Assembly: GCA_947591245.1 (NCBI GenBank)
Contig: CANQCY010000002.1
Location: 1-36,910, forward strand
Direction of reading: 5' to 3'
DNA from: an uncultured Lachnospiraceae bacterium
GTDB lineage: Bacteria > Bacillota > Clostridia > Lachnospirales > Lachnospiraceae
Length of the DNA: 36,910 nt
Part shown: piece after piece, positions 18,232-24,289 of the stretch
Layout: every line of letters begins with the position of its first letter
How positions within the stretch are numbered: the first letter of the stretch is position 1
The notes under the pieces: model-generated
What the model saw: the letters and a program-made list of their open reading frames with translations, nothing else
What the model was told of the DNA's origin: nothing
Database searches by the model: none
Made by a program: the position numbers and the translations under genes

Positions 18232-18660
18232 TTATTTCTGCACCCGCAAAGACTCATGGTTATCCATTTGGCTAAAATATTGTGAAATCTTTTCCAATGC
18301 CTCTTCCACAGAAACGCTAACATCAAAAGCTGAAATAGCTCTCCGCTCTAATTGCTTTTGTATATGAAATCCAATTTTCTTACAGACAACGCACCGGCAG
18401 TCCGATATTAGTTCTACCTTTTCAGATGCTTCTCCGGCGCCGCATCCGCCTCCTGTACCGCCGCCGCAACCGCCTTCCTTTTTGCAGCCAGCCGCTATGG
18501 ATACGCCATTGTTATCTGTTTCCTCCTTGCGAAAAGTTCTTTCTTCCAGCCTTCTACATGTACCGTCTGCCACTTCGTATATAATAAATCTTTTTGCAGC
18601 CCCAAAGGTTTCATCGATCTGTATTCCATCCGAGGATGCAACCGCAATTTTATACGACAT
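18232..18660 (-). CDS. NifX/NafY-like FeMo-cofactor-binding protein with Cys/Gly-rich insert
   Basis: A 142-residue protein of the dinitrogenase iron-molybdenum cofactor family (NifX, NafY and the C-terminal domain of some NifB). The start MSYKIAVASSDGIQIDETFGAAKRF is the family signature, and the end (DVSVSVEEALEKISQY) closes the RNase-H-like fold. A glycine- and cysteine-rich insert (GCKKEGGCGGGTGGGCGAG) and CRCVVCKKIG give six cysteines between about residues 59 and 93. Such proteins carry nitrogenase cofactor precursors, so this one probably shuttles a NifB product to the nifD/nifK-like pair, from which it is 16 bp downstream. The insert may bind an Fe-S cluster. Confidence 0.82.
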   Translation of the reverse strand: MSYKIAVASSDGIQIDETFGAAKRFIIYEVADGTCRRLEERTFRKEETDNNGVSIAAGCKKEGGCGGGTGGGCGAGEASEKVELISDCRCVVCKKIGFHIQKQLERRAISAFDVSVSVEEALEKISQYFSQMDNHESLRVQK

Positions 18661-18676
18661 ATTTCCCGACCTCCCG

Positions 18677-19975
18677 TTAATTAAACCTTTGAACGGCTAC
18701 TGTATAGATATCCTCGATCAGCCGGATGCCTCCTGTATAGCCTGCATAGAAATCATCCAGTACCACTTTATCCTGTACCGGCCATGCAATATTTAAGTAA
18801 TTTCCTTCCAGGCTTTCAGTAAGCTCCTTTTCATAATAGCTTCCGAGGATCAGCGGATATCCGTGATAATCATGCTCTTTGATCTGCTCATGGATCTTAT
18901 AGCTGTCCGTTTCAAAGACGGCCTCCGCCTCCAGTCCGTAATTTAGCTTTTTAAATTCCTCTGTAATCGTTTTCCGGTACTGTTTTGGCGTATCATCCAC
19001 GATAAACTGTTTGGCGGGTACAAGTCCCAAGTCATTTGCCAAAAACTTTGTGATACCGAGGGCGTACTGCGCATCTGCAACAACGGAAAACTGCTTGTTG
19101 ATCACGCGGTTTTCCAAGAAAAGGTCGGCGTAGCGTTCGATCAGATAATAATAATAGTTCTCATGCTCGCCTATGGCGCTCTCCACCTTTTTTTCATCCA
19201 CTCCTGCAAATGCTCCAACCTCCCGCAGAAACTTACTTGTCTCAAATGCGCCAATAGGAAGCGTAGGAAGATGAAACCATGGAAGTCCCAGTTTTTTCTC
19301 CATTTTCTTCATATTTCCCACAGAAACCCATGGGGAAACCAACAAGTTAAACTCCGCCTTCGGGATTTTGTTGATCTGATCGATCCCTCTGTTATATCCG
19401 AAAATCGTATTCGGCGTAAGCCCAATTTCCGCAATCAGTTTCTCCAGTTCCCTGATATTTCCAAGCCAGAATAAATCCTGATAAGGAACGTCCGCCCAGA
19501 TATTGACCAGGCCCTTTTCCCTTTCTTCTGATTTTTCCAAATACTGGTCGATAATGGCGTCGATCACCTGCTCGTGCCCGATATAGTTGTTGCCCTTAAA
19601 TCCCGCTGTCGATGCGTAGATGACAGGCTTTTCGGCATTTTCAAAACGGCTCACGACCTCGCCGGTATCGTCGCCTACAATTTCCGGAATACAGCCTGTC
19701 AGCACCACATACAAATCCGCATCGATTACCTTTAAGGCGTTTTCGATCGTTGTTTCCAGCTTTTTTACGCCGCCAAATACCACATCCTTCTCATTGATGC
19801 TGGTACAAGGAAAAATATTAGGCGAAAAATATCCGGAACTTCCCGTAGAGTCCGATAGCTTCTGCGCACACCCCGGACCGGAATGCAATACCGGTATCGC
19901 CCTTGTGATTGCCTGTACAGTCTGCATTGCTCCCAAAGCACATTTATATCTTTGTTTATCTAATAATTTTGCCAT
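18677..19975 (-). CDS. Nitrogenase-like component beta (NifK-like)
   Basis: A 432-residue protein of the nitrogenase component 1 / oxidoreductase family. All three cysteines expected for a P-cluster half are present: Cys12 (YKCALGAMQ), Cys36 (HSGPGC) and Cys95 (TGCIPEIVGDD). It is shorter than NifK (about 520), as in nitrogenase-like enzymes such as methylthio-alkane reductase or chlorophyll-synthesis reductases. It starts two bases after the nifD-like gene and is clearly co-translated. The expected form is an alpha2beta2 complex taking electrons from the NifH-like protein. It is not a nitrogen-fixing NifK on length and context; its substrate is unknown. Confidence 0.87.
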   Translation of the reverse strand: MAKLLDKQRYKCALGAMQTVQAITRAIPVLHSGPGCAQKLSDSTGSSGYFSPNIFPCTSINEKDVVFGGVKKLETTIENALKVIDADLYVVLTGCIPEIVGDDTGEVVSRFENAEKPVIYASTAGFKGNNYIGHEQVIDAIIDQYLEKSEEREKGLVNIWADVPYQDLFWLGNIRELEKLIAEIGLTPNTIFGYNRGIDQINKIPKAEFNLLVSPWVSVGNMKKMEKKLGLPWFHLPTLPIGAFETSKFLREVGAFAGVDEKKVESAIGEHENYYYYLIERYADLFLENRVINKQFSVVADAQYALGITKFLANDLGLVPAKQFIVDDTPKQYRKTITEEFKKLNYGLEAEAVFETDSYKIHEQIKEHDYHGYPLILGSYYEKELTESLEGNYLNIAWPVQDKVVLDDFYAGYTGGIRLIEDIYTVAVQRFN

Positions 19976-19977
19976 TC

Positions 19978-22470: not shown

Positions 22471-22487
22471 AATCATTGACCTCCATC

Positions 22488-23336
22488 TTAAATGTGGTAA
22501 TCGTCCGCCGAGTCCATCAGGCCGAACTCAAGAAGAATTTCCTCCAACCTCTCCTGCGTCATCGGCGTAGGAATGTCAAACTTAGTATTGTCAATAACCG
22601 CCTGTGCAAGATTGCGGTATTCCTGCGCCTGATTGGAGTCCGGCTTATATTCAATGACGGTTTTCTTGTTGATCTCCGCCCGCTGCACAATGTTGTCACG
22701 CGGCACAAAGTACAAAAGCTGCGTGCCAAGTTCCTTCGAAAAAGCGCGCAAAAGATCTAACTCCCTGTCTACATTCCTGCTGTTGCAGATAATGCCGCCA
22801 AGCCTGACGCCGCCGGTTTTTGCGTAGCGCTTAATACCCTTTGCGATGTTGTTTGCCGCATATAACGCCATCATCTCTCCGCTGGCAACGATGTAAATTT
22901 CCTTTGCTTTCCCCTCTCGGATCGGCATTGCAAAGCCGCCGCAGACGACATCGCCTAATACATCGTAAAATACATAATCCAAGTCCTCTGTATATGCGCC
23001 TAAGTTTTCCAGCATATTGATGGAGGTAATAATACCCCGCCCCGCACAGCCTACGCCCGGCTCCGGCCCGCCGGATTCCACGCATCTGGTTCCGCCAAAT
23101 CCCTCTCTCATAATTCTGTCGAGTTCAATGTCTTCGCCCTCATCCCGAATGGTGTCCAAAACGGTCTTCTGCGCCAGTCCGCCGAGCAGAAGCCTTGTAG
23201 AATCCGCCTTCGGATCGCAGCCTACCACCATGACTTTTTTCCCATGTTCGACGAGTCCCGCTGTCAGGTTCTGCGTAGTGGTCGATTTTCCAATACCGCC
23301 CTTTCCATAGATTGCAATCTGTCTTATTTCTGCCAT
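22488..23336 (-). CDS. Nitrogenase-like iron protein (NifH-like)
   Basis: A 282-residue ATP-dependent electron donor. P-loop GKGGIGKST at 11-19, switch [11 protein letters not shown], [4Fe-4S] ligands Cys97 (GVGCAGRG) and Cys132 ([12 protein letters not shown]), and Arg100, the ADP-ribosylation site in some NifH, all at canonical NifH numbering. Conservation is close to true NifH. The start at 23336 has AAAGGA upstream and gives the canonical N-terminus [14 protein letters not shown]; an earlier in-frame start at 23378 lacks a site. It should form a homodimer and reduce the nifD/nifK-like complex. It follows nifB-like by 80 bp. Confidence 0.93.
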
Positions 23337-23416
23337 TGTTCTTTTTTTCCTTTCAAAATAAATTTTGTAATTGTTCATATGCGATCAGCTTATCCAGCGG
23401 CTGTTCCTTTACTGAT

Positions 23417-24289
23417 TTATCCATGCGAAAATGTTTCCTTTACATTTAATCTCCGTTGGTAAATCCGATCGCCGTACTCCGATTTCCCCGGAACGCCGAC
23501 CGCATCGGCTCTGCAGTGCTGGCAATGCCTGAATACGTCTATATACTTAGAAGCTCTGGTTCGCGCCGCGTCAATCTGTGCACAGTCGGGAGCTTTCTGA
23601 TCAGCCAGTTCATACTGCGGAATCAGGGGGATAATATTATAAATGCTTGCGCCCGCCTCTTTGACGGTTTTTGCGATTTCCTCGATGTGTTCCCCGTTTA
23701 TTTCCGGAACAAGCACCGTATTTATTTTGATTGCGATACCTGCAGCCGCAACTTTTTTGATGCCCTTTAACTGATTCTCTATGAGAATTTCCGCCCCTTC
23801 TATGCCCTCGTATTTTCTGCCGTGATAAATAATATATTTATTCAGCTTCGCGAGGATCTCCGGTTTTACCGCATTCACCGTAACCGTCAGGGAGTCGATT
23901 CCTAGATCGATCGCTTCATCCGCCCTTTCATGCAAAAGCAGTCCGTTTGTGCTCATGCATTTGATGAGATTCGGAAATTTTTCTTTGATCTTCCGGAAAG
24001 TTTCCAGGGCATAATCCGTAGCAAGCGTATCTCCCGGCCCCGCAATGCCGGCAACTGTAATTTCCGGACATATGGCTAACGCTTTTTCCAGAATTTCCAG
24101 GCTTTCATCCGGCGTTATCACTTTTGAGGTCACTCCCGGCCGTTCCTCCACATCATTAACCGCCCTGTCGCAAAAACGGCAGGCAATGTTACATCCCGGA
24201 CTAACCGGAAGATGAATCCGTCCCGCATTATTTTTATGACCGCCAAAACACGGATGGGCGTTTTGCAAGTCCTGATATGTATTTCTCAT
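23417..24289 (-). CDS. nifB: NifB-like radical SAM cofactor-core synthase
   Basis: A 290-residue NifB without the C-terminal NifX-like domain. The N-terminal HPCFGGHKNNAGRIHLPV and the radical SAM motif C33-NIA-C37-RF-C40 are typical, as is RPGVTSKVITPDESLEIL; the C-terminal RHCQHCRADAVG matches the NifB cluster-binding end. NifB fuses two [4Fe-4S] clusters with a carbide to make the 8Fe core of nitrogenase cofactors, so its presence argues that the nifD/K-like enzyme carries such a cofactor. The start at 24289 has GAAGGTG upstream; the frame is open further upstream through a structured leader. It is the first gene behind a conditional-looking terminator. Confidence 0.93.
   Translation of the reverse strand: MRNTYQDLQNAHPCFGGHKNNAGRIHLPVSPGCNIACRFCDRAVNDVEERPGVTSKVITPDESLEILEKALAICPEITVAGIAGPGDTLATDYALETFRKIKEKFPNLIKCMSTNGLLLHERADEAIDLGIDSLTVTVNAVKPEILAKLNKYIIYHGRKYEGIEGAEILIENQLKGIKKVAAAGIAIKINTVLVPEINGEHIEEIAKTVKEAGASIYNIIPLIPQYELADQKAPDCAQIDAARTRASKYIDVFRHCQHCRADAVGVPGKSEYGDRIYQRRLNVKETFSHG

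Follow-up and report, generated by a model that had tools for sequence, protein, structure and literature searches.

The window analyzed here is a stretch of 36,910 nucleotides from an uncultured Lachnospiraceae bacterium (GenBank assembly GCA_947591245.1, contig CANQCY010000002.1). Its open reading frame (ORF) listing contains six minus-strand genes, NifB-NifH-CysK-NifD-NifK-NifX, spanning positions 18232-24289, so that a cysteine synthase-like (CysK) enzyme of the pyridoxal 5'-phosphate (PLP) type is embedded among the components of a nitrogenase-like reductase. Using the likely start codons, the intergenic gaps are 80, 11, 15, 2, and 16 bp in operon order, in agreement with an earlier note on this DNA that had given this gene order with gaps of 2 to 80 bp. 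We named the embedded CysK-like gene family cysKn. The genes are listed below, with Mar standing for methylthio-alkane reductase and E for the expectation value.

23417-24289, minus strand: NifB-like radical S-adenosylmethionine (SAM) protein (TIGR01290 270.6 bits, below the cut-off of 343.65; PF04055)
22488-23336, minus strand: NifH-like ATP-dependent reductase (TIGR01287 464 bits, above the cut-off of 394; PF00142)
21472-22476, minus strand: embedded CysK-like PLP enzyme, cysKn (PF00291; under both curated cut-offs)
19978-21456, minus strand: NifD-like subunit, Mar-type (PF00148; MarD 9fmg as nearest structure; residues; tree)
18677-19975, minus strand: NifK-like subunit, Mar-type (PF00148; MarK 9d9u_C as nearest structure)
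18232-18660, minus strand: NifX-like protein (PF02579, E 2e-14)

The NifB-like ORF runs from 23417 to 24400, and the likely ATG at 24289 gives a protein of 290 amino acids, the usual length of its orthologues. The TIGR01290 match (E 2e-80) covers residues 46-306 of the longer ORF and positions 9-278 of the 441 in the profile. The protein is the radical SAM part alone, without a fused NifX domain, and probably makes the Fe8S9C precursor cluster. The NifH-like ORF extends to 23378, with a likely start at 23336 that gives 282 amino acids, and the NifX-like protein is a possible cofactor carrier. No NifEN was found: apart from the NifD-like and NifK-like genes, the 55 contigs of the window's own genome, an 85% complete assembly, contain no PF00148 gene, in line with the absence of nifE and nifN described in the earlier note.

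Next, we compared the two large subunits with solved structures. The D subunit is closest to MarD (9fmg, E 7e-92), with nitrogenases reaching 3e-33 at best, and the K subunit is closest to MarK (9d9u_C, E 1e-110), with nitrogenases at 8e-23 at best. Identity to the Rhodospirillum rubrum proteins is 34% for MarD and 41% for MarK. The D subunit scores below all curated NifD, VnfD, and AnfD models (170 of 486 bits for the best alpha-subunit model) and the K subunit below the curated NifK model (88 of 427 bits). The NifH-like protein does meet the curated nifH model, which is not specific to N2 fixers.

Residue conservation was read from a 74-row NifD alignment, from which four short NifD rows were omitted. 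The window D subunit retains the equivalents of MarD C66, C91, and C158, three P-cluster-type cysteines whose predicted role we take from their columns in NifD-like rows. Cys12, Cys36, and Cys95 of the K subunit line up with MarK cysteines, giving six P-cluster cysteines across D and K. Also retained are C270, W195, F199, H375, R428, and H429 (MarD numbering). Passages of PMC12552129 describe roles for C270, W195, H375, R428, and H429 at the Mar cluster and propose the Arg428-His429 pair as a Mar hallmark. All nine positions are kept by 80/80 relatives, meaning here and below the best 80 of 528 confirmed places from a NifD-alignment scan of one genome per species. The Arg-His pair is missing from the rows taken as true NifD or NifE, and rows taken as similar to isethionate reductase (Isr) lack C66, C158, and C270; these labels are our own, NifE being assigned by position (the rows were not scanned) and Isr by the missing cysteines. 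Two positions next to the active site differ from MarD. That of Cys73 is Gly in the window and Gly, Ser, or Ala in 66, 11, and 3 of the 80 relatives, and that of His194 is Ile in the window and in all 80; among the other Mar-type alignment rows, His194 is kept solely by the close Mar at locus L061. We predict that the Fe8S9C cluster sits in the NifD-like subunit.

In the tree, the window clade comprises 24 rows (support 100/100), joined by the long row L069. It is sister to the clade of R. rubrum MarD (17 rows, 100/99) and does not fall inside it. The joint Mar-type clade of 42 rows is well supported (100/99), and a smaller tree agrees (99/97). Ten NifD/NifE-like rows lie outside this clade, and those taken as NifD are 62-65% identical to Clostridium pasteurianum NifD. 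Judged by its tree position and residues, the reductase is a Mar-type enzyme of a sister branch and not a nitrogenase. Compared with R. rubrum MarBHDK (9fmg, 9d9u), the operon has the same B, H, D, and K components, the P-cluster and Fe8S9C ligands, Arg428-His429, Trp195, Phe199, and His375; it is set apart by the modest identities given above, its sister-clade position, the embedded CysK-like gene, and the Cys73-to-Gly and His194-to-Ile changes. With Mo-nitrogenase NifHDK it shares the fold, NifH, NifB, the P-cluster cysteines, and the Cys275 equivalent, yet it scores below the NifD and NifK cut-offs, NifEN was not found, and it is distant in the tree. The earlier note had suggested a relative of methylthio-alkane reductase rather than a nitrogenase, and both parts are upheld: the nearest structures, the residues, and the sister clade point to Mar, and the D subunit lies under the curated cut-offs and outside the NifD grouping in the phylogeny that the note had proposed against nitrogen-fixing Nif. 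We therefore reject nitrogen fixation on phylogeny, model scores, and the absence of any found NifEN.

We also considered an Isr-type enzyme that frees sulfite. Rhodobacter capsulatus IsrBHDK is likewise related to nitrogenase, serves sulfur assimilation, and works with a radical SAM protein, and passages of PMC11423573 report Isr from intestinal bacteria. According to the same passages, IsrD has just one P-cluster cysteine out of three and no counterpart of Cys275, and the best SWISS-Prot match of IsrB is BciD. The window, in contrast, keeps the equivalents of Cys62, Cys154, and Cys275 that IsrD lacks, and its B protein matches the NifB model. The Isr-like rows L077, L078, L079, and L085 form a separate clade, and a PF01077 sulfite reductase was not found in the window's own incomplete genome. 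Given the retained cysteines and the missing PF01077 match, Isr-type sulfite release was rejected; we give it almost no chance.

Several loci hold a further D/K pair. At L061:14371-17262, in the same order, a Mar 78-79% identical to R. rubrum MarDK lies beside a second Mar-type pair (44-47%). A second pair of a different kind is present at 25/80 loci (e.g., L035:10952-13685 and L144:12334-15084), and none was found in the window's own genome. The pairs of this kind keep C66, C91, C158, and C270, lack Arg428-His429, and have Thr at 375, like the NifE-like rows. They may serve as a scaffold for cluster assembly, in the manner of NifEN, or be a further reductase. NifD is in pieces in assemblies L054 (9350-10393) and L056 (8027-8845), through decay or assembly error.

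The position of the embedded CysK gene is conserved. A CysK-like gene lies immediately before NifD at 71/80 loci, and the full NifH-CysK-NifD order is present at 62/80; the arrangement is therefore not due to chance. Two loci could not be assigned either way, one on a contig starting at NifD and one with another ORF in the slot. The neighborhood search in other genomes that the earlier note had suggested thus finds the arrangement recurring, and its view of CysK as a conserved part of the operon stands. Among the carriers are Lachnospiraceae, Ruminococcus, Butyrivibrio INlla21, M55, and LC3010, Ruminococcaceae KHP2, rumen Treponema, and others. The nearest named NifD relatives (95-96% identical) come from bins labeled Lachnospiraceae, Clostridium, Eubacteriales, and Roseburia. 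With the window's NifD, those of Treponema and Spirochaetaceae share 87-90% identity, which suggests transfer across phyla. The distribution of the operon is patchy, as no match to NifD was obtained in two congeneric genomes that are each 99% complete. Among the titles and abstract starts of the open-access literature searched, we found no description of the arrangement. According to passages of PMC10418091, anaerobes have MarHDK-like genes within or close to their type I mlp clusters (group IV-A); these clusters are alike in combining Mar-like and sulfur-metabolism genes, with CysK named in the Fig. 7 legend, and unlike in that those passages give no CysK between H and D.

Furthermore, we surveyed 392 genomes of the order, scoring at most four NifD and five CysK candidates per genome, so that misses are possible. 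By our count, window-type NifD is present in 25/392. Close cysKn kin (E <= 1e-105, a threshold set to exclude ordinary CysK, at which the type 2 slot CysKs described below would be missed as well) gave 23 matches in 18/392 genomes, and all 18 also carry window-type NifD. A copy directly before NifD accounts for 17 of the 23 matches. Four off-slot copies (L051, L053, L105, and L106) lie less than 10 kb from a Mar-type DK pair, and the off-slot copy at L103 has no clear partner. L105:8212-14498 and L106:221-8104 hold a second Mar-type K/D pair with its own cysKn and an amino-acid ATP-binding cassette (ABC) transporter; the main operon is present in these genomes as well. Because the L105 and L106 D subunits fall in the MarD clade, the cysKn family is paired with two branches of Mar-type reductase. 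Counted by clade, an embedded CysK is found at 19/25 window-clade loci versus 0/14 sister-clade loci, or 2/16 counting L105 and L106; these clade-locus counts omit L069, L072, L089, L091, and L092 among others, and L051, with both NifD kinds, is counted apart. At L104:8976-15316, a cysKn copy is the first gene of an operon whose other products are an NMT1-like ABC transporter, a protein of the DUF4418 family, and an FtsX-like permease, and a similar gene set is found close to the reductase at other loci.

The embedded CysK is also a remodeled enzyme. It falls under the curated cut-offs (315 versus 351 bits for cysK, 326 versus 344 for cysKM), whereas the adjacent CysK2, to which it is 51% identical, passes. 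Common to it and the O-acetylserine sulfhydrylase CysK are SVKDR (the PLP lysine motif), TSGNTG (the carboxylate-binding loop), and GTGGT, all intact. The QF, MSxER, and substrate-loop motifs are changed in cysKn. QF becomes QT, QC, QV, QI, or QL, MSxER becomes QVSxER, and [12 protein letters not shown] of CysK becomes EEITGVHPFEGVxxxxIP, with about seven extra residues in the window's type. The QF Phe, which we take to be Phe143 of the Salmonella enzyme, is present in 0/69 full-length slot copies versus 9/9 sampled neighboring CysK2 proteins. These motifs set the embedded CysK apart from housekeeping copies, and the earlier note's reservation that it might have only housekeeping activity finds no support on the sequence side. 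A single-sequence structure model (mean predicted local distance difference test score 39.6) was not used.

The slot CysKs come in two types, type 1 (window-like) at 46 loci and type 2 (SHKDR, HGIHxVH) at 23. Type 1 CysKs are 63-92% identical to that of the window. At type 2 loci, NifD is 84-90% identical to the window's and CysK just 42-46%. At least five changes of CysK type are needed on the NifD tree, a quick tree with 31/79 inner branches open. It appears that the slot is kept while its occupant is exchanged, since similar NifDs accompany divergent CysK types. The unrooted CysK tree is compatible with two recruitments or with one deep split of the types.

The operon is surrounded by the following genes, and the CysE, second CysK, PatB-named enzyme, and Cys/Met PLP enzyme listed as flanking genes in the earlier note are all present, with the CysE Pfam matches below cut-off.

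14067-15044, minus strand: CysE, serine acetyltransferase (Hexapep and SATase_N, all below cut-off; named by sequence reading)
24423-24581, minus strand: DUF2292 small protein between CysK2 and NifB, presumably YezD-type (PF10055, E 4e-17)
24618-25571, minus strand: CysK2, a canonical CysK adjacent to the operon (448 bits with TIGR01139, above cut-off)
27411-28598, minus strand: aminotransferase-fold enzyme, called PatB in the earlier note (PF00155)
28570-29778, minus strand: Cys/Met PLP enzyme of the cystathionine gamma-synthase/lyase type (PF01053; best NF005810, below cut-off)
29788-30699, minus strand: LysR-type regulator (PF00126, PF03466)

CysK2 still has QF and [10 protein letters not shown]. 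CysE is the likely source of O-acetylserine, and a homologue of the PatB-type enzyme is present at 32/80 loci.

What the DNA itself shows is a Mar-type phylogeny, residues that bind the clusters, a gene order kept among relatives, and an active-site signature peculiar to the embedded CysK; substrate, product, acceptor, and co-transcription are parts that we infer as the best explanation of them. On this basis we propose, at a probability of roughly 0.55, that the operon encodes an organosulfur-scavenging system, in which a Mar-type enzyme reduces a C-S bond and a dedicated PLP enzyme places the freed thiol or sulfide onto O-acetylserine. As homology to Mar suggests, NifB with NifX would build the Fe8S9C cluster, which would be inserted into NifDK without any NifEN. 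NifH and ATP would then drive electrons through the P-cluster to the Fe8S9C cluster, where a small organosulfur molecule would be cut at a C-S bond to give a thiol or sulfide. The embedded CysK-like enzyme would add this product to O-acetylserine, supplied by the neighboring CysE, or to a similar activated amino acid, so that a volatile product is fixed in the form of cysteine or an S-substituted cysteine. From there, the sulfur could be handed on by the PatB-type and Cys/Met PLP enzymes. Homology provides good grounds for linking the operon to organosulfur chemistry. Because the pocket is remodeled and a canonical CysK is adjacent, the embedded enzyme probably has a role beyond plain sulfide-to-cysteine conversion, and its nucleophile may be other than sulfide.

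A related thiol-capture logic is seen in the sister clade. Mar frees methanethiol, a methionine precursor, from methylthio compounds, according to passages of PMC12552129. MetY-like genes, whose products could use methanethiol, lie near 6/14 sister-clade loci versus 2/25 window-clade loci, with one of the six (L067) being a 111-amino-acid end fragment. By matching logic, the embedded CysK would be the evident capture enzyme in the window clade. Could the operon then simply be a methylthio-alkane reductase, salvaging methionine from 2-methylthioethanol through methanethiol with CysK replacing MetY? The cluster-binding residues are identical and the nearest solved relatives are Mar, as this would predict. 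Against it, the pocket differs at Cys73 (Gly/Ser/Ala) and His194 (Ile), though His194 is absent from most Mar-type rows, and true Mar lies in the separate sister clade, with the L061 Mar 78% identical to R. rubrum MarD. The methylthioadenosine route requires MtnA, which is present in 3/18 cysKn genomes, 5/25 window-clade genomes, and 5/12 sister-clade genomes (two of the last five below cut-off). Taken together, we find this explanation distinctly unlikely, and methylthioadenosine salvage as a general source is weakened by the MtnA count in cysKn genomes.

Free sulfite is also an unlikely product, because PF01077 sulfite reductase is found in just 4/18 cysKn genomes and not in the window's own. 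Of the 14 cysKn genomes without PF01077, 11 are at least 98% complete, and G000, G290, and G287 are 85, 78, and 71% complete. PF01077 is present in 6/7 genomes with window-type NifD in which no intact cysKn was found (Fisher 0.007 versus 4/18), and in 167/374 of all remaining genomes (p = 0.087 versus 4/18). Neither comparison is corrected for descent, and we regard the rarity of PF01077 in cysKn genomes as a hint.

Alternatively, the embedded CysK might just supply cysteine for Fe-S cofactor assembly via NifS, with the reductase chemistry independent of it. Cofactor assembly requires cysteine sulfur, and extra cysteine-synthesis genes are said to serve it in some nif clusters. Consistent with this, an Aminotran_5 protein (NifS-like by reading, one scanned) is present at 13/80 loci and a NifU-like protein at 7/80. 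However, the CysK gene lies between NifH and NifD and not beside NifS or NifU, its QF Phe is lost in 69/69 slot copies and kept in 9/9 sampled CysK2 proteins, a CysK2-like gene is usually nearby, and off-operon cysKn copies accompany transporters. We consider this explanation unlikely. It is quite improbable that CysK acts first, building an S-substituted cysteine that the reductase then cleaves. The CysK gene does stand immediately before the catalytic subunits, and amino-acid-type ABC transporters lie beside some cysKn copies, but there is no known logic in making and then destroying a thioether, and the operon is surrounded by sulfur-assimilation genes.

Several observations weigh against our proposal of a reductase feeding a dedicated capture enzyme. 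NifH stands immediately before NifD at 7/80 loci, including that of the cultured Ruminiclostridium hungatei, and of these seven slots without CysK only L173 has a copy elsewhere in its stretch, so the reductase does not depend on CysK. At 17/25 window-clade loci of the order and 54/80 named loci, a CysK2-like gene is nearby, which already provides for simple capture of sulfide. The embedded enzyme might also act ahead of the reductase or use a different nucleophile. Only 4/8 scanned MetY-like proteins pass TIGR01326, two of the four in window-clade loci. The transporters near the clusters are of several types and indicate no single substrate. Finally, our counts carry no correction for relatedness, and several genomes are incomplete.

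Stand-alone LanC-like proteins are found at 11/80 loci (e.g., L169:12513-13895 and L179:13902-15260), five of which have an additional divergent CysK, and PF05147 was confirmed for two. These neighbors hint at thioether chemistry.

We then looked at the leaders upstream of NifB. ARAGORN places an operon-strand tRNA-Cys there in 32/83 leaders (31/78 distinct), with anticodon GCA in 31 and ACA in one (e.g., L043:1599-1668, L111:3152-3223, and L165:5727-5798). In an alignment of 26 rows, 25 of them distinct, the acceptor stem is paired in 100% of cells, 9/20 pairs have changes on both sides, and 0/500 shuffles gave covariation as high. This looks like a maintained structure. One anticodon-stem pair is mismatched in 25/25 distinct rows. 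Taking a 7-bp acceptor stem, the discriminator base is G in 23/32 and A in 9/32, and it is U in a housekeeping tRNA-Cys found in the window's own genome and in G330; in G322, no housekeeping tRNA-Cys was found with the pattern used. U73 is described as a main identity element for cysteinyl-tRNA synthetase in passages of PMC7609411 and PMC8762117. In the window itself, no tRNA was found, and Rfam also gave no match. Two features lie upstream of NifB.

24307-24313, minus strand: GATGCTG, apparent 5' remnant of a tRNA-Cys-like gene (comparison with the L111 and L114 leaders)
24314-24414, minus strand: terminator-like inverted repeat upstream of NifB (read from sequence)

GATGCTG equals the first seven bases of the tRNA-Cys-like gene that is whole in close relatives, and the window seems to have lost its copy. 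The arms of the inverted repeat are at 24407-24414 and 24322-24329 and are followed by eight T; similar arms are present upstream of NifB in L111, L112, L114, and L172. That the tRNA-Cys-like leader senses cysteine supply is a guess. More broadly, the operon might represent a new anaerobic route of organosulfur assimilation, in which a Mar-sister reductase works with a neofunctionalized CysK that captures a non-sulfide thiol on an activated amino acid to give S-substituted cysteine, the swappable slot sets the product, and the leader ties expression to cysteine supply in many relatives. This fuller version is tentative, and we doubt that all of it holds.

The operon would add a branch to the few nitrogenase-like enzymes that perform C-S chemistry with nitrogenase-type clusters. 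It places the Mar-sister branch in gut and rumen bacteria and names a specific partner enzyme, the embedded CysK, for the reductase. Because the NifH here passes the curated nifH model, gut nifH surveys may count such operons as N2 fixers.

Two further genes of the window deserve mention. An MnmA-like gene at 16245-16940 encodes just 231 amino acids and lacks a large middle part, with an L040 homologue of 373 amino acids. HydE, a hydrogenase H-cluster maturase, is at 15121-16248, just past NadA and the short MnmA.

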